Below are positions 18,890-29,019 of a stretch of DNA of 64,000 nucleotides, one piece after another (the stretch's first letter is position 1; the number at the start of each line of letters is the position of its first letter). Under the pieces are notes generated by a model. The model saw only the letters and a list, made by a program, of their open reading frames with translations, was not told where the DNA came from and searched no databases. The stretch comes from Arcobacter lacus (GTDB lineage: Bacteria > Campylobacterota > Campylobacteria > Campylobacterales > Arcobacteraceae). The stretch lies in assembly GCF_003063295.1 (NCBI RefSeq), contig NZ_MUXF01000005.1, forward strand, positions 124,001 through 188,000. Direction: 5' to 3'. A program made the position numbers and the translations under genes.

Positions 18890-19957
18890 ATGTTAAAAGA
18901 CAAACTTCAACCATTTATCAATAGATTCGAAGAAATCAATCAATTATTGATGTCTTCTGAAATAACTAGTGATATAAAAAGAATGACTGATTTATCAAAA
19001 GAACAATCAAGCATTCAACCTATTGTTTCTAAAGCAAAAGAGTATATAAAAGTACTTGAAGATATCGAAGAAAATAAACTTATGTTAGATGATCCTGAAC
19101 TTGGTGATTTAGCAAAAGAAGAATTAAAAGAGTTAGAAACAAGAAAACCAGAATTAGAAGAAGAGATAAAAGTTCTAATGATTCCAAAAGATCCAAATGA
19201 TGATAGAAATATCTATTTGGAATTAAGAGCTGGAACTGGTGGTGATGAAGCTGCTATATTTGTGGGTGATTTATTTAGAGCTTATTTAAGATATGCAGAA
19301 AATAATGGTTGGAAAGTTGAAATAATGAGTTCAAGCGATAGCGAATCTGGTGGTTACAAGGAAATAGTTATTCTTGTAAAAGGTGACCATGTATATTCAA
19401 AATTAAAATTTGAAGGTGGTACACACAGAGTTCAAAGGGTTCCTGCTACTGAATCTCAAGGAAGAGTTCACACTTCAGCAATTACTGTTGCAGTTATGCC
19501 AGAAGTTGATGATGTTGAAATCGAAATAAATGAAAATGATTTAAAAATTGATGTTATGAGAGCTAGTGGAAATGGTGGACAATCTGTAAATACTACAGAC
19601 TCGGCTGTTAGAATCACTCATATTCCATCTGGTATTGTAGTTACTAACCAAGACCAAAAATCTCAACATAAAAATAAAGATAGGGCTTTAAAAGTTTTAA
19701 AAGCAAAACTTTATGAAATTGAGATGGAAAAGAAAATGGAAGCAGAAGGTGCTACAAGAAAAGAACAAGTAGGTACTGGTGATAGAAGTGGAAGAATTAG
19801 AACATATAATTATCCACAAAATAGAATTAGTGACCATAGAATAAACTTGACTTTATATAGACTTGATTACATCATGAATGATGGTTTATTTGGTGAAGTA
19901 ATTGATCCTCTTATTGCTGATCATCAATCTAAACTTATCGAAGCTAATGGATTATAA
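18890..19957 (+). CDS. prfA: Peptide chain release factor 1
   Basis: The 355-residue factor reads UAA/UAG. It has the codon-recognition loop with PAT ([14 protein letters not shown]) and the GGQ peptide-release motif in [17 protein letters not shown]. Full length. It is cotranscribed with rpsT. Its TAA stop falls in the loop of the terminator hairpin that ends the operon. Confidence 0.97.
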
Positions 19958-19973
19958 ATCTATTAGCTTTTTT
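19941..19973 (+). terminator. Terminator overlapping the prfA stop codon
   Basis: The arms AAGCTAATGGAT (19941-19952) and ATCTATTAGCTT (19958-19969) form a 12-bp stem with one G-U pair and are followed by T. The loop contains the prfA TAA. Confidence 0.75.
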
Positions 19974-20001: not shown

Positions 20002-20022
20002 TAGTAACCAAAATGTAATCAA
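20002..20022 (+). promoter_or_regulatory. Pho-box-like direct repeat upstream of pstS
   Basis: GTAACC at 20004 and GTAATC at 20015 form a direct repeat with an 11-bp period, like the TGTCA-N6-TGTCA half-sites of E. coli PhoB boxes. TATTAA (20027-20032) downstream could be the -10, giving a leader of about 28 nt. A near copy lies before pstC. The regulator is inferred to be the PhoB-like protein at 26.96 kb. Confidence 0.6.
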
Positions 20023-20066
20023 CAGTTATTAAACTTCCAATGTATAAAAATTTATTGGAGATAAAA

Positions 20067-21122
20067 ATGACTTTCAAAAAAACATCTATGGCTTTAATAG
20101 CAAGTGCATTATTAACAACTACATTAAGTGCAAGAGATCAAATTAAAATAGTTGGTTCGTCAACTGTTTATCCTTTCTCATCTTCAGTGGCTGAAGAATT
20201 TGGTGCAACAACAAAATTTCCAACTCCTGTTGTAGAATCAACTGGAACTGGTGGTGGAATGAAACTATTTTGTGCAGGAGTTGATTTAAATACTCCAGAT
20301 ATTGCAAATGCTTCAAGAAAAATGAAAGACAAAGAGTTTGAAACTTGTAAAGAAAATGGTGTTACAGATATAACTGAAGCATTAATTGGATTTGATGGTA
20401 TTGCTATTGCTCAATCAACAAAAGTAAAAAGTTTTAATGTAACAAAAGAGCAATTAGCTTTAGCAGTTGCTGAAGAAGTTCCATCAAAAGATGGTAAAAC
20501 ATTAATCAAAAATCCATATAAAAAATGGTCAGATATTGATGCATCTTTACCAAATAGAGAAATTATTGTTTACGGACCACCAAAATCATCTGGTACAAGA
20601 GACTCTTTTGAAGAGTTAGTATTACAACATGTATTTGAAAAAATGCCAGTATATACTGATTTATTTAAAAAAGATGAAAATGCTAACAAAAAATATAAAG
20701 CATATTCTGTTATAAGAACTGATGGAGTTTATGTAGAATCTGGTGAAAATGATAACTTAATTGTTCAAAAACTTACAAAAAATGAAGCTGCAATTGGTAT
20801 TTTTGGATATTCATTCTTAGCAGAAAATAAAGATAAAGTTTTAGGAATTACAGTTGATAATATTTCACCAACAGTTGAAACTATTGCAAGTGGAAAATAT
20901 CCAGTTGCTAGATCTATGTATTTTTATATCAAAAATCAACACTCTAAAGATGTTCCAGCTTTAAAAGAGTATACAAATCTTTTTATGTCTGAAAAAATGA
21001 TAGGTGATAATGGAATTTTAAGTGAACTTGGACTTATCCCTTTAACAAGTGATGTAAGAAGTAAAGCAAGAAATAAAGTTCTAAATAGTGAAAAATTAAC
21101 AATAGAAGAATTAAAACACTAA
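20067..21122 (+). CDS. pstS: Periplasmic phosphate-binding protein
   Basis: This PBP_like_2/PstS protein opens with a signal peptide (...TTTLSA) and the phosphate-loop region IKIVGSSTVYPFSSSVAEEF, with STGTGGGMKLFC and GPPKSSGTRDSFEEL further on, both anion-binding segments of the family. I chose ATG 20067 (351 residues) because GGAG lies 6 nt upstream; the frame also opens at 20040 without a ribosome site. It captures phosphate for PstCAB. A strong terminator follows directly, so PstS can be made in excess of the membrane components. Confidence 0.95.
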   Translation: MTFKKTSMALIASALLTTTLSARDQIKIVGSSTVYPFSSSVAEEFGATTKFPTPVVESTGTGGGMKLFCAGVDLNTPDIANASRKMKDKEFETCKENGVTDITEALIGFDGIAIAQSTKVKSFNVTKEQLALAVAEEVPSKDGKTLIKNPYKKWSDIDASLPNREIIVYGPPKSSGTRDSFEELVLQHVFEKMPVYTDLFKKDENANKKYKAYSVIRTDGVYVESGENDNLIVQKLTKNEAAIGIFGYSFLAENKDKVLGITVDNISPTVETIASGKYPVARSMYFYIKNQHSKDVPALKEYTNLFMSEKMIGDNGILSELGLIPLTSDVRSKARNKVLNSEKLTIEELKH

Positions 21123-21128
21123 AACAAA

Positions 21129-21160
21129 AAATAAAAAGAAGTTATAACTTCTTTTTATTT
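21129..21160 (+). terminator. Strong hairpin after pstS
   Basis: A 15-bp perfect stem (arms 21129-21143 and 21146-21160) with a 2-nt centre is rich in A/T and followed by a further T-rich stretch. It probably limits transcription from pstS into the downstream genes. Confidence 0.8.
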
Positions 21161-21191
21161 ACTCTTTTTAAAAACTTCATTTAGGAAACTC

Positions 21192-22922
21192 ATGCCAAAT
21201 TGGACTGAAATAATAGAAAAATTAGATTATGCTTTTCAGCCTATAATTTACTCTCATAGTGGCAAAATTTATGCTGTTGAAGCACTACTTAGAAATGTTC
21301 ATGAAATACCAGGATTGATGAGTATTGATGACTTATTTGATTTAGCATTTAATGATGATTATTTGTATGAATTGGATTTACAGCTAAGAGAAAAAGCGAT
21401 AAGTAAATTTGCAAAAATAAAACAAAGCAATTTGAAACTTTTTTATAATTTAGATAATAGAATAATTTATAACAAAAATTATTCTCAAGGAAATACTGCA
21501 AAAATACTAAAAAAGTATAACTTGAACAAAGATAGTATTTGTTTTGAATTAAGTGAAAAAGGTACAGCAATAGAGCAAAATGCTTTATCAACAATGTTAC
21601 AAAGATATAAAGAAAGTGGTTACAAAATAGCTATTGATGATTTTGGAATAGGTGTATCAGGACTTAAACTTTTGTATTTTAGTGAAGCACATATTATAAA
21701 ACTTGATAGATTTTTTATTACAAATATTGACCAAGACTCTAAGAAAAAACTTTTTTGTTCCTCGATAATTGAAATGGCTCATATTATGGGAATGCAAGTA
21801 ATTGCAGAAGGTATAGAAACAGCAAAAGAGTTTTATACTTGTAAAGATATTGGAGCAGATTTTATACAAGGATATTTAGTTCAAAAACCAACAACAAATA
21901 TTGATAAAATAGAAAAGATTTATAATAATATTTGCTCTTTGATATCTGAAGATAAAAGAGCAAGCCAAAATAATTTTATTGATGAAAAATTTATAGAAAA
22001 TATTTTACCTTTAAATGTAAATACCTCTTTATATGATTTATTTTTGCATTTCAAAGAAAATACTAAAAGCCATTTTGTACCTATAACTGACGAATTTGGA
22101 AATTTTTTAGGAATAATTTATGAAAGTGATATAAAAAAAATATCTTACTCTCAATATGGTTTATCTTTAGCTCAAAATAGAACATTTTCATCAACTTTAT
22201 TAAAGTATATAAAACCAGCTTTAAGTGTTGAAATCTCTTGGGGAATTGATAAAATTTTAGAAATTTATAATCTAAATTCAAATAACTCTTTGGGAATATT
22301 TATAACATCTTCAGATAAATATATAGGATTTATAAATCTAAACTCTTTATTAACACTTTCTTATAAAAGAAATATTGAAATTGCTACAAATCAAAATCCT
22401 CTTACAAAACTCCCTGGAAATAATCAAATAGAAAAATTTATAGATAAAAGTTTTAAGAAAAATCAAAAAGATATAACTCACATAATTTATTTTGATTTTA
22501 ATGATTTTAAACCTTTCAATGATATTTATGGATTTAGGCAAGGAGATAGGGCGATTTTAATATTCTCAGAACTTTTGCAAAAAAGATATTCAAAAGACTC
22601 TTTTATCGCACATATTGGTGGAGATGATTTTTTTGTTGGACTAAAAAATAAAGACAAAGAAGATGTATTTGAATTGACGTCAAATGTACAAGATGAATTT
22701 AGAAATAGTGCAAAAAATATCTATTCAAAAGAGGATAAAAAAAATGGTTTTATTATCTCAAAAGATAGATTCAATGAAAAAAGAAGATTTGAATTACTAT
22801 CTGTTTCAGCTGCGATTATAGAGATAAATTCAAAATCTGACATTTCAAATTTTGATAACACTTTAAATATAGTGAAAAAAGCTTCAAAAAATTCAAAAAA
22901 ACCTATTTATAGTGTTTTGTAA
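21192..22922 (+). CDS. EAL-CBS-GGDEF cyclic-di-GMP signalling protein embedded in the pst locus
   Basis: The 576-residue cytoplasmic protein has an N-terminal EAL domain (1-240), a pair of CBS-like repeats (about 265-390) and a C-terminal GGDEF domain (about 400-576). The EAL residues look intact: E30 in EALLR, Asn in YNLDN, FELSE, IDDFG, IKLD, IAEGIE and QGYLVQ. The GGDEF site reads G476-G-D-D-F, an allowed active variant; I see no RxxD inhibitory site upstream. It may make, break or both cyclic-di-GMP, with CBS domains sensing a nucleotide. It lies between pstS and pstC, which suggests a link between phosphate supply and motility or biofilm. Confidence 0.9.
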   Translation: MPNWTEIIEKLDYAFQPIIYSHSGKIYAVEALLRNVHEIPGLMSIDDLFDLAFNDDYLYELDLQLREKAISKFAKIKQSNLKLFYNLDNRIIYNKNYSQGNTAKILKKYNLNKDSICFELSEKGTAIEQNALSTMLQRYKESGYKIAIDDFGIGVSGLKLLYFSEAHIIKLDRFFITNIDQDSKKKLFCSSIIEMAHIMGMQVIAEGIETAKEFYTCKDIGADFIQGYLVQKPTTNIDKIEKIYNNICSLISEDKRASQNNFIDEKFIENILPLNVNTSLYDLFLHFKENTKSHFVPITDEFGNFLGIIYESDIKKISYSQYGLSLAQNRTFSSTLLKYIKPALSVEISWGIDKILEIYNLNSNNSLGIFITSSDKYIGFINLNSLLTLSYKRNIEIATNQNPLTKLPGNNQIEKFIDKSFKKNQKDITHIIYFDFNDFKPFNDIYGFRQGDRAILIFSELLQKRYSKDSFIAHIGGDDFFVGLKNKDKEDVFELTSNVQDEFRNSAKNIYSKEDKKNGFIISKDRFNEKRRFELLSVSAAIIEINSKSDISNFDNTLNIVKKASKNSKKPIYSVL

Positions 22923-22950
22923 CTATTTTGTAATCAACTTCCTTTAGAAT
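22915..22950 (+). promoter_or_regulatory. Pho-box-like tandem repeat and -10 box before pstC
   Basis: TTTTGTAACTA (22915-22925) and TTTTGTAATCA (22926-22936) form an exact-period 11-bp tandem repeat, overlapping the stop codon of the upstream gene. TAGAAT at 22945-22950 is a good -10 box 8 bp after it. The element shares GTAAC-N6-GTAATC with the copy before pstS. Confidence 0.65.
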
Positions 22951-22953
22951 TTT

Positions 22954-23910
22954 ATGAAAATTAGCATAAAGGCAAAAGGGTTGAATAGTTTTGAATCACG
23001 AAAAAAACAAAGAGAACTCAACGAAAAATTAATAAAAATTGCACTTATATTCGCAGCTGCAATCTCAATATTAACTACTTTTGGAATTTTGTTTTCGATT
23101 TTATTTGAAGCAATAGAGTTTTTTAAATTAAGAAGTTTCTGGTACTTTTTAACTGGAACAGTTTGGAGTCCAGGAGTTGCAGGAAGTCAATTTGGTGCAT
23201 TACCAATTTTTGCAGGTACATTTGTAATAACAATTATAGCTTTACTTGTGGCAATTCCTATTGGTCTTGGAAGTGCGATTTATATGAGTGAATATGCAAG
23301 TCCAAAATTAAGAGATTATTTAAAACCACTTTTAGAAGTTCTTGCTGGTATTCCAACTGTTGTTTATGGATTTTTTGCTGCTGTTACAGTGGCTCCATTT
23401 GTTGTAAAAGTTGCAGCAATTTTTGGTTTAGAAGCTACATTTAATAGCGCATTAGCTTCTGGAGTTGTTATGGGAATTATGATTATTCCTTTAGTTTCTT
23501 CACTTTCTGATGATGTTATAAAAGCAGTTCCTGATTCTCAAAGAAAAGCAGCTTTTGGACTTGGTATGACACATGGTGAAACTATTAAAAATATTGTTTT
23601 ACCTTCAGCAATGCCAGGAATTATTTCAGCTTCACTTTTAGCTCTTTCACGTGCTCTTGGTGAAACAATGATTGTTGTTATGGCAGCAGGTTTAAGACCA
23701 AATCTTTCTTGGAATCCACTTGAAGACATGACGACGGTTACAGTTACAATAGTAAACTCTTTGGTTGGAGATTTTGAATTTAATTCGCCTGAAACTCTTT
23801 CTGCTTTTGCTTTAGGATTGATGTTATTTATTGTAACTTTGATTTTAAATATGATTTCATTGTCAATGATAAGAAAATTTAAAGAAAAATATAAAGTGAA
23901 TACATTATGA
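22954..23910 (+). CDS. pstC: Phosphate ABC transporter permease PstC
   Basis: This permease (318 residues from ATG 22954) has six membrane helices and the BPD_transp_1 EAA-type loop AAFGLGMTHGETIKNIVLPSAMPG. It forms the channel with PstA. The start is uncertain: ATG 22954 has no Shine-Dalgarno and would coincide with the expected transcription start, whereas in-frame TTG 22981 has AAAGG 8 nt upstream and would remove nine residues. It overlaps pstA by 4 bp. Confidence 0.95.
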   Translation: MKISIKAKGLNSFESRKKQRELNEKLIKIALIFAAAISILTTFGILFSILFEAIEFFKLRSFWYFLTGTVWSPGVAGSQFGALPIFAGTFVITIIALLVAIPIGLGSAIYMSEYASPKLRDYLKPLLEVLAGIPTVVYGFFAAVTVAPFVVKVAAIFGLEATFNSALASGVVMGIMIIPLVSSLSDDVIKAVPDSQRKAAFGLGMTHGETIKNIVLPSAMPGIISASLLALSRALGETMIVVMAAGLRPNLSWNPLEDMTTVTVTIVNSLVGDFEFNSPETLSAFALGLMLFIVTLILNMISLSMIRKFKEKYKVNTL

Positions 23911-25091
23911 TAAAAAAGAAAAAAAATAAACAAAATAATCCATTTTATGATCCAACACTAAAAAGTAGACATACAAGTGCAGCTAGATTTAAGAAATTTA
24001 CACTTACTTCTTTGATATTTTCAATTGCATTTTTAGCTTTTTTCCTTTTCGATATGATTACTAAAGGAGTACCAGCTTTTAATGTTGCATATGTAAAAGT
24101 AGATGTAACATTTAGTGAAAAATCTTTAGAAGATACAAGATTTGCAGTTGATAAAAAATATAGAGATATTGTATCAAGAGCTTGGCTTAGAGATATTCCT
24201 AATTTATTAAAAGAAAATCCAGATTATATGAATACAACGCAAAACCTTTGGGTTTTAGCTGATGACCAAGTTGATCAATATATAAAAAATCACAATAATA
24301 ATCTAAAAGATAAAGAAATAATTATTGTAGATGAATTATATTCTCAAGGTTTAATTGAAAAAAAATTTAATGCAATATTTTTCAAAAATGGTGATTCAAA
24401 AATACCTGAATATGCAGGAATTTTTTCAGCAGTTGTTGGTTCGATTTTAACTTTGATTATAACAATGCTTGTAGCATTTCCAATTGGAGTTATGACAGCT
24501 ATTTATCTTGAAGAGTTTGCAGGTGATAATAAATTTACAAGATTTATTGAAATAAATATTAATAACCTTGCAGCTATTCCATCTATTTTATTTGGACTTT
24601 TAGGACTTGCAATATTTATAAACCTTTTTGGAATGCCAAGAAGTTCACCTTTAGTTGGAGGTTTAACTTTAGCACTTATGACTTTACCAATTATAATAGT
24701 TAGTTCAAGAGCGGCACTTAGAGCAGTTCCTGATAGTATAAGACAAGCTGGATATGGTTTAGGATTAAATAAAATCCAAGTTACACGAGATCACGTTTTA
24801 CCTTTAGCATTTCCTGGAATTTTAACAGGTTCAATTATTGGTTTAGCACAAGCTATGGGAGAAACAGCTCCTTTAATTATTATTGGAATGATAGCCTTTA
24901 TTCCTGATGCTCCAACGATGGTTACTCAAGCTGCAACAGTTATGCCAGCACAACTATTTACTTGGGCAGGAATGCCAGAAGGTATGTATATAGAAAAAAC
25001 AGCAGCAGGAATTTTGGTTTTATTAACAATCTTAATTTCATTAAATGCAATAGCAATTTATCTTAGAAAAAAATTAGAAGTAAAATGGTAA
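23907..25091 (+). CDS. pstA: Phosphate ABC transporter permease PstA
   Basis: The 394-residue permease is longer than E. coli PstA (296) because of a periplasmic insertion of about 110 residues between TM1 and TM2 (about 55-165), which is Asp/Lys-rich. The core contains the EAA-like loop AGYGLGLNKIQVTRDHVLPLAFPG and PLIIIGMIAFIPDAP near the C-terminus. It pairs with PstC. The start overlaps the pstC stop, and pstB follows after 15 bp. Confidence 0.95.
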   Translation: MIKKKKNKQNNPFYDPTLKSRHTSAARFKKFTLTSLIFSIAFLAFFLFDMITKGVPAFNVAYVKVDVTFSEKSLEDTRFAVDKKYRDIVSRAWLRDIPNLLKENPDYMNTTQNLWVLADDQVDQYIKNHNNNLKDKEIIIVDELYSQGLIEKKFNAIFFKNGDSKIPEYAGIFSAVVGSILTLIITMLVAFPIGVMTAIYLEEFAGDNKFTRFIEININNLAAIPSILFGLLGLAIFINLFGMPRSSPLVGGLTLALMTLPIIIVSSRAALRAVPDSIRQAGYGLGLNKIQVTRDHVLPLAFPGILTGSIIGLAQAMGETAPLIIIGMIAFIPDAPTMVTQAATVMPAQLFTWAGMPEGMYIEKTAAGILVLLTILISLNAIAIYLRKKLEVKW

Positions 25092-25106: not shown

Positions 25107-25877
25107 ATGAATACAGATAATAAAATTAAAATAGATACAAAAAACTTAAATCTATTTTATGGCTCAAATCAAGCTTTACATGATATCAATGTTAGTTTAT
25201 TTGAAAATAAAATCACAGCATTAATTGGACCATCAGGTTGTGGAAAATCAACATTTTTAAGATGTATAAATAGAATGAATGATTTAATTCCAATAGTTAA
25301 AATAGATGGTCAAATAATAATAGATAATAAAAATATCTACGACAAAGATGTTGATGAGGTGAGTGTTAGAAAAAAAATAGGAATGGTTTTTCAACAACCA
25401 AATCCTTTTCCAAAATCAATTTATGACAATGTAGCTTATGCTCCACTAAAACATGGAATTGTAAAAAAAGGTAAAGAGTGTGATGAGTTAGTTGAAAGCT
25501 CACTTATTAAATCTGGACTTTGGAATGAAGTAAAAGATAAATTAACACAACCAGGAACTTCACTTTCAGGAGGCCAACAACAAAGACTTTGTATTGCTAG
25601 AACAATTGCTGTTCGTCCAGAAGTTATTTTAATGGATGAACCAACATCTGCACTTGACCCAATAAGTACTGAAAAAATAGAAGCACTTATGCTTGATTTA
25701 AAACAAGATTATACGATTATTACTGTAACTCACAATATGCAACAAGCAGCGCGTGTTGCAGATTATACGGCATTTTTCCATTTAGGAAAACTAATAGAGT
25801 ATGATATAACAGAAACTATTTTTGTTAATCCACATAATAAAAAAACAGAAGATTACATCACAGGGAGATTTGGATAA
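25107..25877 (+). CDS. pstB: Phosphate ABC transporter ATPase PstB
   Basis: The 256-residue ATPase has Walker A GPSGCGKS, the Q-loop [17 protein letters not shown] that is diagnostic for PstB, signature [13 protein letters not shown], Walker [14 protein letters not shown] and the switch His in TVTHNMQQA. It powers phosphate import. AAAGGAAA precedes the ATG; it shares one base with phoU. Confidence 0.97.
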
Positions 25878-26545
25878 TGTTAAAACCATATGAAACAAAA
25901 TTACAAAATATTAAAGAAGAGATTCAACAAATTGGAGTATCAGTTATTGAAGCATTAGAAATTTGTCTAAAAGCTTTAAATGATAGAAGAATTGAAGATT
26001 TAAGCAATGTTGAAATTAGTGAAAAAAAGATTTTATTAAAATCAAATGAAATTGATAACATTATAGTTGGAACTTTAGCTTTATATTCACCAGAAGCAAA
26101 AGATTTAAGAAGATTGGTGTCTTTTTTAAAGATTACAAATGAACTTGTAAGAACAGGTTCAAATGCAAAAGATTTTGCAAAAATGTTTAAAAAATCCTAT
26201 TCACAAGATTTGGATACAGCTATTATTTTAGAATATGCGATTCCTCTTTTAAAATCAGCATTATTGTCTTTACAAACGGCAACTTCTATTATTGATGAAC
26301 ATGATGAAAAACAAATCGAAGAAAAATATCATAGAGTTGTTGTTGAAGAGAGTAAAACTGATGATTTATATTTGATGATAGAAAAAAATATTTTAAAACT
26401 AATTACAAAAAAACTTGATTTATCAAAAGAATATTTTGATATTTTAAGTAGTTTAAGAAGATTAGAAAAAATAGCTGATCGTGCTGTTTCTATTGCAAAA
26501 TTATTGCAGTTTGCTCAAGTAGGTGGAGATATAGTTCAATCATAA
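25877..26545 (+). CDS. phoU: Phosphate signalling/transport regulator PhoU
   Basis: The 222-residue helical protein has two PhoU three-helix bundles with the metal-binding style segments PEAKDLRRLVSFLKITNELVR and SSLRRLEKIADRAVS. PhoU connects PstB to the PhoR kinase so that Pho genes stay off when phosphate is plentiful. Overlap with pstB by one base shows tight coupling. Confidence 0.94.
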   Translation: MLKPYETKLQNIKEEIQQIGVSVIEALEICLKALNDRRIEDLSNVEISEKKILLKSNEIDNIIVGTLALYSPEAKDLRRLVSFLKITNELVRTGSNAKDFAKMFKKSYSQDLDTAIILEYAIPLLKSALLSLQTATSIIDEHDEKQIEEKYHRVVVEESKTDDLYLMIEKNILKLITKKLDLSKEYFDILSSLRRLEKIADRAVSIAKLLQFAQVGGDIVQS

Positions 26546-26568: not shown

Positions 26569-26973
26569 ATGAAAAAAGCTATAAACAAAATCTCAAATTA
26601 CTTTAGTTCGAACTTTGAAGTTTTAGTTGCAACAATTATCTTTTTAACGATACTTGTTGCAGGGCATGACTTTTATAGAGCAATTATTCTAATGTTAGAA
26701 TTTATTGTTATTATGGAAGTTGTAAAAATGATCTCGGATTTTATAAAAAAAGAAACATTAAGACTTAGATATGTTTTGGATATTTTTATAATATTTTTGA
26801 TTCGAGAAGTTGTTATTTTATCTGCAAATAAAAATAGAGATTATATTGATATAACATTTTTACTTTTTGTAATCTTTGTATTTTTTATATTTAGAATTCT
26901 TGCGATTAGATACTCTCCTGGACCTAAAGATGGAAATGAAAAAACAAATAAAGCTATAGAAAATGACGAATAA
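26569..26973 (+). CDS. PsiE-family phosphate-starvation-inducible membrane protein
   Basis: The 134-residue protein has four predicted membrane helices (about 18-32, 37-55, 68-88, 97-112) and matches the PsiE family in size and pattern (IVIMEVVKMI...RYVLDIFIIFLIREVVIL). PsiE is induced by phosphate starvation in E. coli; its function is unknown. Its place between phoU and the PhoB-like gene supports membership in the Pho regulon. It overlaps the response regulator by 11 bp. Confidence 0.8.
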   Translation: MKKAINKISNYFSSNFEVLVATIIFLTILVAGHDFYRAIILMLEFIVIMEVVKMISDFIKKETLRLRYVLDIFIIFLIREVVILSANKNRDYIDITFLLFVIFVFFIFRILAIRYSPGPKDGNEKTNKAIENDE

Positions 26974-27640
26974 CAAACTTATTTTAATTATAGAAGATGA
27001 AGAAGATATTTTAGAACTTCTTGAGTATACATTACAAAAAGAGGGTTATGAAACTATTGGATTTTTAACTATTGATAAAAATGTAAAAAAAGTTTTAGAT
27101 GAAGAACAAATAGATTTAATATTAATGGATAGAAATCTACCAAATATTGAAGGTACCACTTTTATAAACGAAATAAAAAAAGAGGGTTATACTAATCCTG
27201 TTATTTATCTAACTGCAAAAGATAAAGATGAAGATATTTTAGAAGGTTTTGAGTCTTATGCTGATGATTACATTACAAAACCTTTTAACATAAAAGAGTT
27301 ATGTGCTAGAGTAAAAGCAGTAATAAAAAGAACTTCAAAAGAGCTTGATATTTTAAAAGTTAAAGATATGGTTTATAATGCTTCAAATAGAAAGTTTTAT
27401 ATCGAAGATAAAGAGATTGACCTAACTCACCTTGAACATGATTTACTTTTAGAATTTATTAAAAATAAAGATATTTTGATGACAAGAGAACATCTGTTAA
27501 ATATTGTTTGGCAAGACTCTTTTGATAAAAAAGAGAAAACAGTAAATGTTGCAATTAAAAGGTTAAAAGCCAAAATTGACCCTGATGGAACAAAAAATTA
27601 TATTCGTTCAGTTAGAGGTGAAGGTTATATTTTTTGTTAA
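26963..27640 (+). CDS. PhoB-like OmpR-family response regulator
   Basis: The 225-residue regulator has a receiver domain with acidic pocket E11-D12-E13, phospho-acceptor D56 (LILMDRNLP), Thr in YLTAKD and Lys in ITKPFN, then a winged-helix DNA-binding domain ending RSVRGEGYIFC. It lies after pstSCAB-phoU-psiE and before a sensor kinase, so it is the likely PhoB equivalent (PhosR in Campylobacter). It probably binds the 11-bp-period repeats before pstS and pstC. It has no clear ribosome site and overlaps psiE, so it likely depends on coupling. Confidence 0.9.
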   Translation: MTNNKLILIIEDEEDILELLEYTLQKEGYETIGFLTIDKNVKKVLDEEQIDLILMDRNLPNIEGTTFINEIKKEGYTNPVIYLTAKDKDEDILEGFESYADDYITKPFNIKELCARVKAVIKRTSKELDILKVKDMVYNASNRKFYIEDKEIDLTHLEHDLLLEFIKNKDILMTREHLLNIVWQDSFDKKEKTVNVAIKRLKAKIDPDGTKNYIRSVRGEGYIFC

Positions 27641-29019
27641 AAATTCATCAACTATTTTTACGAACTTATTTCACTATTTTTGTTGCGATTTTAATAACTT
27701 TGACTTTAGTTACTTATTTTTGGGCAAAAAATTTATATATAAATCAAATAGAAAAAACTCTTATTCAAAATATTGATACTTTATCTATTGTTTTAAAAGA
27801 CCAAAATAATTTATCACATATAAAAAATATTGTAAGAGATTTGCATAGTGAATTAAATTTAAGAATTACTATAATAGATGAACAAGGTGAAGTAATCGCC
27901 GAAAGTGATCAAAATCTAGCTTTTATAAAAAATCATGCAAATAGACCAGAAATAATTCAAGCTAAAAATGTAGGTTGGGGAAAAGATAAAAGAAACTCTG
28001 AAACTATAAAAAAAGAACTTTTATATATTGCAAAAAAATTTGAAACAGATAATTCTACTTATTATATTAGAATGGCAGATTATACAAATAAAATTGCTGA
28101 TAATTTTATGAAATTAACTCTTGAAATTTTTATGTATATTACATTTTTTCTAATAATTGCATTTTTAGCAACATATTTTATAAGCCTTAAAATCAAAAAA
28201 GAAACAGATACTATTTTATATTTTCTTACGCAACTAACAAATAAAAAAAGTTTAATTCCTTTACGTTCAACTTATACATATGAGTTTTATAAAATCACAA
28301 AACTATTAAATAAAGTTGCTATCAAATTATCAAAAAAAGATAAACAAAAGTCAAAACAAAATGCAAAACTAAAACTAGCAAATAGACAAAAAGATGAGAT
28401 AATATCAGCAATCTCTCATGAGTTTAAAAATCCAATTGCGATAATTTCTGGATATAGTGAAACTATTTTAAATGATAAAGATATGCCAGAACTTATGAAA
28501 GTAAAGTTTTTAAATAAGATTTATTCTAATTCAAATAAAATGTCACATATTATTGATAAATTGAGATTAACTTTAAAATTAGAAGAGGGCAAACAAGAAC
28601 TGCTTTTAGTTCCTTGTTCTACAAAAAAAATAGTAGAAAATTGTGTGAGTGATTTAAAAGATAAATATAAAAATAGAGAGATTGTAATAAAAGGGGAAGA
28701 TGTTTTAATAAAAGTTGATGAAACTTTGATTTCTATGGCAATTTCAAATTTAATAGAGAATTCATTAAAATATTCACAAAAAGAGGTTATTGTCGAGCTT
28801 TCAAAAGAGTATATTTGTATTATTGATAAAGGTATTGGAATAGAAAAAAAAGAGTTAGAGAATATCAATCAAAAATTTTATAGAATATCAAATAATGGAT
28901 GGAATAACTCTTTGGGATTAGGATTATTTATCGTTCAATCAATACTAAATTTACATAATTTTAAACTAGAAATTGAATCTGAAATAAATATCGGTTCTAA
29001 ATTTTATATAAAATATTAA
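27634..29019 (+). CDS. PhoR-like sensor histidine kinase
   Basis: The 461-residue kinase has a TM helix at 12-32, a periplasmic or extracytoplasmic sensor loop (about 33-165), a second TM at 166-185, a HAMP-like linker, a HisKA domain with H262 in ISHEFKNP and a HATPase domain with NLIENSLKYS, DKGIGIEKKE and GLGLGLF. It starts with TTG and overlaps the response regulator. As the partner of the PhoB-like protein and neighbour of phoU it is the likely PhoR/PhosS phosphate sensor. A sensor loop of that size is unlike E. coli PhoR, which has almost none. Confidence 0.9.
   Translation: MLKIHQLFLRTYFTIFVAILITLTLVTYFWAKNLYINQIEKTLIQNIDTLSIVLKDQNNLSHIKNIVRDLHSELNLRITIIDEQGEVIAESDQNLAFIKNHANRPEIIQAKNVGWGKDKRNSETIKKELLYIAKKFETDNSTYYIRMADYTNKIADNFMKLTLEIFMYITFFLIIAFLATYFISLKIKKETDTILYFLTQLTNKKSLIPLRSTYTYEFYKITKLLNKVAIKLSKKDKQKSKQNAKLKLANRQKDEIISAISHEFKNPIAIISGYSETILNDKDMPELMKVKFLNKIYSNSNKMSHIIDKLRLTLKLEEGKQELLLVPCSTKKIVENCVSDLKDKYKNREIVIKGEDVLIKVDETLISMAISNLIENSLKYSQKEVIVELSKEYICIIDKGIGIEKKELENINQKFYRISNNGWNNSLGLGLFIVQSILNLHNFKLEIESEINIGSKFYIKY

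Follow-up and report, generated by a model that had tools for sequence, protein, structure and literature searches.

The 64,000-nucleotide (nt) stretch of the Arcobacter lacus genome analyzed here (contig NZ_MUXF01000005.1, forward-strand positions 124,001 to 188,000; hereafter the window) contains a phosphate import (pst) locus with two matching tandem repeats, box 1 and box 2, which very probably are the on-switches of the importer, to judge by their sequence context. The locus consists, in order, of prfA, a hairpin, box 1, pstS, another hairpin, the gene for an EAL-CBS-GGDEF protein (eal), box 2, pstC, pstA, pstB, phoU, psiE, a PhoB-like regulator gene, and a histidine kinase gene. The gene pstS (20067 to 21122) encodes a phosphate-binding protein with a PBP_like_2 domain, and its sole NCBIfam hit, TIGR02136, lies below that family's cut-off. 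The product of eal (21192 to 22922) is a predicted cyclic di-GMP (c-di-GMP) phosphodiesterase by its Pfam domains and an alignment of 24 homologues, with GGDDF replacing GGDEF. Downstream lie pstC (22981 to 23910; TIGR02138 above cut-off), pstA (23907 to 25091), pstB (25107 to 25877), phoU (25877 to 26545), a psiE-like gene (26569 to 26973; PF06146), the PhoB-like response regulator gene (26963 to 27640), whose product has the receiver (Response_reg) and winged-helix (Trans_reg_C) domains of PhoB-type OmpR-family regulators, and the gene for a sensor histidine kinase with an sCache_like domain (27634 to 29019), all on the + strand, as are the boxes and hairpins of the window.

Both repeats have the same orientation and a period of 11 nt, exactly as an earlier note made from the sequence had described them. 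Box 1, before pstS (20004 to 20020), is made of the half-sites GTAACC (20004 to 20009) and GTAATC (20015 to 20020) with a 5-nt spacer, and box 2 (22919 to 22935) of GTAACT (22919 to 22924) and GTAATC (22930 to 22935) with a spacer of the same length, the TAA stop codon of eal falling inside its first half-site. The pattern GTAAYN6GTAATC matches the window only at these two places, compared to a mean of 0.04 matches in 100 shuffles, none of which had two. Ten nucleotides past the second GTAAT of each box is a -10-like hexamer, TAAACT (20030 to 20035) at box 1 and TAGAAT (22945 to 22950) at box 2, and no + strand sigma-70 pair in our promoter scan uses either of them. The boxes thus have the two direct repeats of 11-nt period, the fixed spacing to a -10, and the lack of a good -35 that define a Pho box.

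Comparison within the genus shows that both boxes are conserved in all 25 genomes with eal between pstS and pstC. The four half-sites all keep GTAA without exception while the spacers vary, and the -10 retains its first T, its A, and its last T, following the pattern TA[AG]A[CA]T at pstS and TAN[AT][AC]T at pstC at the same spacing in 25/25 loci. These loci contain 17 distinct 32-nt sites at pstS and 24 at pstC. Genome G004, whose contig ends within pstS, was not judged (G and L are our designations of genomes and loci). The gene starts are also conserved. pstS probably begins at ATG 20067, which is preceded by GGAGA, opens a signal-peptide-like N-terminus, and is conserved in relatives; ATG 20040 was rejected in its favor. 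For pstC, an in-frame TTG (22981 in the window) is found 59 to 63 nt from the start of the box in 25/25 loci, and the start was re-assigned to it; ATG 22954, chosen by the open reading frame (ORF) caller, was rejected; 2 of the 25 loci share it, and 1 has a different ATG upstream (L029 gave no row in this comparison). Starting pstC at TTG 22981 leaves room for a second promoter and a leader. From sequence, transcripts are predicted to start near 20042 from box 1 and near 22957 from box 2, the latter followed by roughly two dozen leader bases. In G028, the pstC sequence (G028:C38:18394-18893, L157) matches query residues 2 to 108 and 284 to 309 only, reflecting an internal deletion or an assembly fault.

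The earlier note had proposed looking for the motif before phosphate genes across the genome, and the outcome depends on the -10. In the own genome (24 contigs, 2,215,371 bases), the bare repeat GTAAYN6GTAAYC has 3 matches compared to 4 for the reversed control; alone, it is not specific, and it was rejected as a genome-wide predictor. Once the -10 is included, GTAAYYN5GTAAYN10TANAMT, a pattern composed after the relatives' sites were known, has four matches in the own genome (pstS, pstC, olsF, and pyruvate kinase) compared to none for the control. Across the 31 genus genomes, it has 76 matches compared to 4 for the reversed pattern. These lie at pstS (31), pstC (27), pyruvate kinase (pyk; 4), eal (2), olsF (2), a second pstS (1, in G029), a UTRA/GntR-phnC pair (1, in G014), and other places (8), so that 58 of the 76 are at pstS or pstC. 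Such sites are rare and mostly located before phosphate genes in the own genome and its 30 relatives, and together with the conservation of both boxes this supports the Pho-box reading already offered in the earlier note. A slightly looser pattern gave a fifth perfect own-genome match (C4:11831); we disregarded this match, which runs antisense within a coding frame. Allowing two mismatches made the pattern useless (166 matches, compared to 190 for the control).

Several individual sites are worth recording. The own-genome olsF has a perfect box plus -10 (L144, 2996 to 3027), with the box starting 53 nt ahead of the ATG; its identity as a bifunctional ornithine lipid synthase is given by the equivalog NF052615 (813 bits, cut-off 620). 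The enzyme makes a phosphorus-free lipid, a known starvation function. The own-genome pyruvate kinase gene also has a perfect box plus -10 (G000:C3:33379-33410, L145). The same site is found in G005 and G028 and probably in G004, where Pfam identified the gene in the own genome, its frames made it recognizable in G005 and G028, and in G004 it is inferred, at the end of a contig. pyk, at one of the four own-genome sites, does not belong to the classic Pho genes, and Pho control of glycolysis through pyruvate kinase is possible. Two of the eight matches at other places, in G001 and G013, run antisense to a Pit-type phosphate transporter gene at its start (L142, 2972 to 3003; L143, 3020 to 3051) and could be repressor sites. 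The third bare box of the own genome (G000:C19:69080-69096, L003) precedes a DUF475/TerC-like membrane protein gene, with no -10 at the usual distance.

The embedded protein is probably a c-di-GMP phosphodiesterase with a regulatory GGDEF-like domain, judging from its conserved residues. Of the residues that we take to be the metal and substrate ligands of EAL enzymes, E30, D149, K170, D172, and Q226 are invariant in 24/24 homologues, and N86, E119, E122, D150, E206, and E209 are conserved in at least 90% of them. The cyclase signature GG[DE]EF is absent, GGDDF standing in its place in 24/24 homologues. Among the 42 solved chains that match at an E value of 1e-10 or better, the best-matching stretch lies in the EAL part for 41 and in the GGDEF part for one (6eib).

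The window has two hairpins upstream of this gene. A terminator-like hairpin with a T tail at the end of prfA (19940 to 19970), found by a terminator scan, would shield the pstS unit from upstream transcription. The A/T-rich hairpin after pstS (21129 to 21160, 14-bp stem), to which the earlier note had drawn attention, is real: the surrounding 61 nt fold at -12.6 kcal/mol (z score, -5.2), and an uninterrupted stem of at least nine pairs is found upstream of eal in 24 of the 25 genus loci. It fails the terminator scan, which requires three G-C pairs, and is a probable partial terminator or 3' end protector. A point absent from the earlier note is that eal sits between this hairpin and box 2 and hence has no box of its own here. 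The promoter scan found no + strand sigma-70-like pair between pstS and eal, which makes read-through the simplest source of eal mRNA; eal must be transcribed either past the hairpin from the pstS promoter or from a promoter that escaped recognition.

Mapping eal across the order Campylobacterales, we found matches at an E value of 1e-60 or better in 88 of 298 genomes. We selected 80 loci for examination, leaving out 22 of the 88 matched genomes (fragments, weaker matches, and near relatives) and not counting second copies (L030 to L033, in G018, G020, G031, and G044) or the G006 fragment L137. In 33 of the 80 loci, eal lies directly behind pstS, and in all 33, one box precedes pstS and another lies where eal ends. 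Among the other 47, 17 eal genes have their own box 20 to 300 nt upstream, compared to 11 of 519 control ORFs of at least 150 amino acids from the same loci, a set that may include pst genes missed by BLAST (Fisher p = 2e-13, too optimistic a value since the kinship of the loci is uncorrected). Although the -10 was outside that search, 16 of the 17 have TANNNT exactly 10 nt past the box, and the 17 copies are spread over six families (f1, f2, f4, f6, f16, and f20). The remaining 30 of the 47 have no GTAAY box within 300 nt; the link between eal and Pho boxes is not universal. Gene orders vary as well. G149 and G267 have box-eal-box-pstS. The G102 and G224 loci yielded no intact pst gene and retain box-eal-box-phoU-psiE-phoB-phoR, the first box of G224 being about 400 nt from eal and thus outside the 17. 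G160 has lost pstCAB and kept pstS, in the order box-pstS-eal-box-phoU-psiE-phoB-phoR. G102, G160, and G224 each have one pstB elsewhere, 56 to 58% identical.

We also compared the best 80 of 551 candidate EAL-CBS-GGDEF genes in named genomes, 10 of which are titled Campylobacterales, Campylobacterota, or one of their genera. Within these 80, E. coli-type TGTCA repeats occur within 320 nt upstream in two only (L266 and L268) and a GTAAY box upstream in one (L214, Sulfurimonas). Outside Campylobacterales, pst genes lie within 3 kb in two of these 80 loci (L215 and L249, metagenome-assembled genomes of Desulfatirhabdium and Thiorhodovibrio, respectively).

Bringing these observations together, we propose that both boxes are Pho-box promoters and that phosphate starvation raises pst and the EAL phosphodiesterase, so that c-di-GMP falls. 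Low phosphate would activate the kinase-regulator pair, and the PhoB-like regulator (26963 to 27640), the candidate binder of both boxes, would, once phosphorylated, occupy the tandem half-sites of each as a dimer, with the box taking the place of the -35 and the -10 lying 10 nt downstream. Box 1 would drive pstS, made in excess, and transcription that reads through the hairpin would yield a smaller amount of eal mRNA. Box 2 would restart transcription for pstCAB-phoU-psiE-regulator-kinase, and with the regulator and kinase behind it the two-component system would amplify itself. The EAL protein would degrade c-di-GMP, and its starvation-induced drop would favor motility or detachment. What the DNA itself supplies are the boxes, their spacing and conservation, the other genes with the same site, the gene order, and the conserved EAL residues; from these we infer binding, the phosphate response, read-through, enzyme activity, and phenotype. 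As a whole, we consider this proposal likely.

Several points weigh against it. The bare repeat is no commoner than its reversed control, and the pattern that is specific was fitted with the relatives' sites in hand. Just upstream of box 2 is a 9/12 sigma-70 match (22844 to 22873), a kind of match no commoner in the sequence than in shuffles. The regulator misses the cut-off of the PhoB equivalog (TIGR02154, 174.6 bits compared to 296.2), PhoB still being its best NCBIfam family. One eal homologue, L132, is degenerate and has lost several conserved positions. pst is found without eal inside it in 5 of the 31 genus genomes; eal lies elsewhere in G018 and G020, and G006, G012, and G028 have no full-length copy. 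To these are added the 30 eal genes lacking a nearby box and the two limits on the own-box comparison given above.

The explanation that best survives beside the proposed circuit, at a low probability, is that eal is a passenger that rides along in the pst operon and plays no part in phosphate physiology. The genus genomes with no eal inside pst and the boxless eal copies elsewhere in the order speak for it, and the 17 copies in six families with their own box, 16 with the -10 in place, speak against it. Moreover, eal stays beside phoU-psiE-phoB-phoR where pstCAB have left the locus, which argues against a passenger gene. A slightly less probable alternative is that one or more other OmpR/PhoB-family regulators, and not mainly the 26963-to-27640 protein, bind the boxes. 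Tandem half-sites at 11 nt are usual throughout this family, the local regulator scores below the PhoB equivalog cut-off, and 6 of the 76 genus matches lie before or near genes without an obvious phosphate link, with the four pyk sites not classically Pho either. However, the gene for this regulator lies behind box 2 both in the window and in seven loci with eal directly after pstS, and the further targets, olsF, the second pstS, and phnC, have phosphate functions. The regulator of the PhoB/PhoR-like pair that the earlier note had placed in this locus is PhoB-like by its best family and falls short of the curated PhoB threshold.

It is more doubtful still that box 2 is no promoter, with a single transcript running from box 1 and the protein at box 2 acting as a roadblock or tuner of read-through. 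The genes are closely spaced, the last bases of eal fall within box 2 in the own genome, and G012, G033, and G036 have the pstS box alone with pstC behind pstS. Yet the -10 of box 2 keeps the same 10-nt spacing as that of box 1 throughout the genus, the distance to the pstC TTG leaves a leader in 25/25 loci, and box 2 is present with box 1 where no eal intervenes, in G006, G018, G020, and G028 and in G035 of another genus. Chance likeness in A/T-rich DNA, for which the 3 versus 4 bare matches could be cited, is rejected as having next to no probability, given the shuffles, the 76 versus 4 genus matches with the -10, and the half-sites invariant at both places.

Relatives have an additional element at the pst/eal locus. 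In members of this genus and of other genera, pstS is followed by a long, covarying hairpin, which precedes eal where that gene is present, for example in L006, L010, L011, and L013. Its apical sequence, TTNACGCGAAC, is almost unchanged between relatives, as is its loop, TTNACGCGAACRAA; the hairpin is absent from the genome of the window. Its 27-base core, with at most two mismatches, occurs in exactly one copy in 13 of the 31 genus genomes, so that a dispersed repeat was rejected as its source. In 14 sequences (13 from the genus and one from G032), the share of paired cells is 98.6% and 11 of 26 pairs have changed on both sides, with 0 of 500 shuffles as high. The exact loop motif is found in 20 of 104 genomes of the family, and 20 of its 21 sites are at the pst/eal locus. 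The hairpin is located beside pstS without eal in G018, G020, and G352 and before eal without an upstream pstS in G102, G149, and G224. With a shorter core, G029 gives one more match, away from the pst locus, and two genomes of one genus have a weaker copy flanked by a symporter gene and a cyclic-nucleotide/CBS-type protein gene (L298 and L299, 1501 to 1571). An Rfam scan of the four loci named above found no family at threshold for the hairpin; three eukaryotic microRNA precursor hits overlapping the L006 hairpin (22.9 to 26.4 bits, compared to gathering thresholds of 62 and 88) were taken as generic long stems.

The Pho box of E. coli has TGTCA half-sites and a -10 close downstream. Here, in contrast, the half-site is GTAAY(C), two boxes split one pst operon, and the regulator scores under the PhoB cut-off. 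In Campylobacter jejuni, the PhosS/PhosR motif has an 11-nt period with GTTTC half-sites, and the half-site letters differ from those found here, provided that GTTTC is right. This system belongs to the same order and is likewise a phosphate-responsive pair, a likeness by description only. In the accessible text of two reports, PhosS/PhosR activates phosphate-uptake genes, and no EAL gene in the C. jejuni phosphate operon is mentioned there (PMC9449129, PMC3197622). A comparable circuit is the RapA-LapD system of Pseudomonas fluorescens Pf0-1, where phosphorylated PhoB at low phosphate binds to a Pho box ahead of the gene for a c-di-GMP phosphodiesterase, after which c-di-GMP drops and the biofilm detaches (PMC3032545). 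The gene here differs in lying inside the pst operon and in its EAL-CBS-GGDEF architecture; it is likened to RapA by circuit, and it is by this analogy that a c-di-GMP drop and release from surfaces would follow in Arcobacter. In Vibrio cholerae, PhoB might regulate acgAB, genes for c-di-GMP enzymes, according to PMC12351708, again a likeness by description and not by sequence. Our literature search, which was limited in depth and mostly without subscription papers, found no GTAAY Pho box or pst-embedded phosphodiesterase described for Arcobacter-type bacteria.

In a wider view, to which we give equal weight for and against, the EAL-CBS-GGDDF phosphodiesterase of Campylobacterales would be an old, hard-wired member of the Pho regulon. 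It would have been tied anew to the Pho system several times, whether it was inserted into pst, had a GTAAY box of its own, or stayed next to phoU-phoBR when pst was lost, so that starvation would act on c-di-GMP directly, lowering it. Between pstS and eal of Arcobacteraceae, a hairpin RNA with a ACGCGAAC loop, apparently not described before, would add a post-transcriptional layer. Many relatives keep eal under this type of switch, so phosphate hunger may be tied to leaving the surface. The consensus with promoter spacing, GTAAYY-N5-GTAAY-N10-TANAMT, is usable for predicting the phosphate regulon in the genus and its relatives, and it becomes testable in Campylobacterales whether phosphate starvation is linked directly to c-di-GMP. 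If this link is true, control like that of Pseudomonas RapA or Vibrio acgAB would exist here in a different wiring, embedded in an operon and kept in much of an order.

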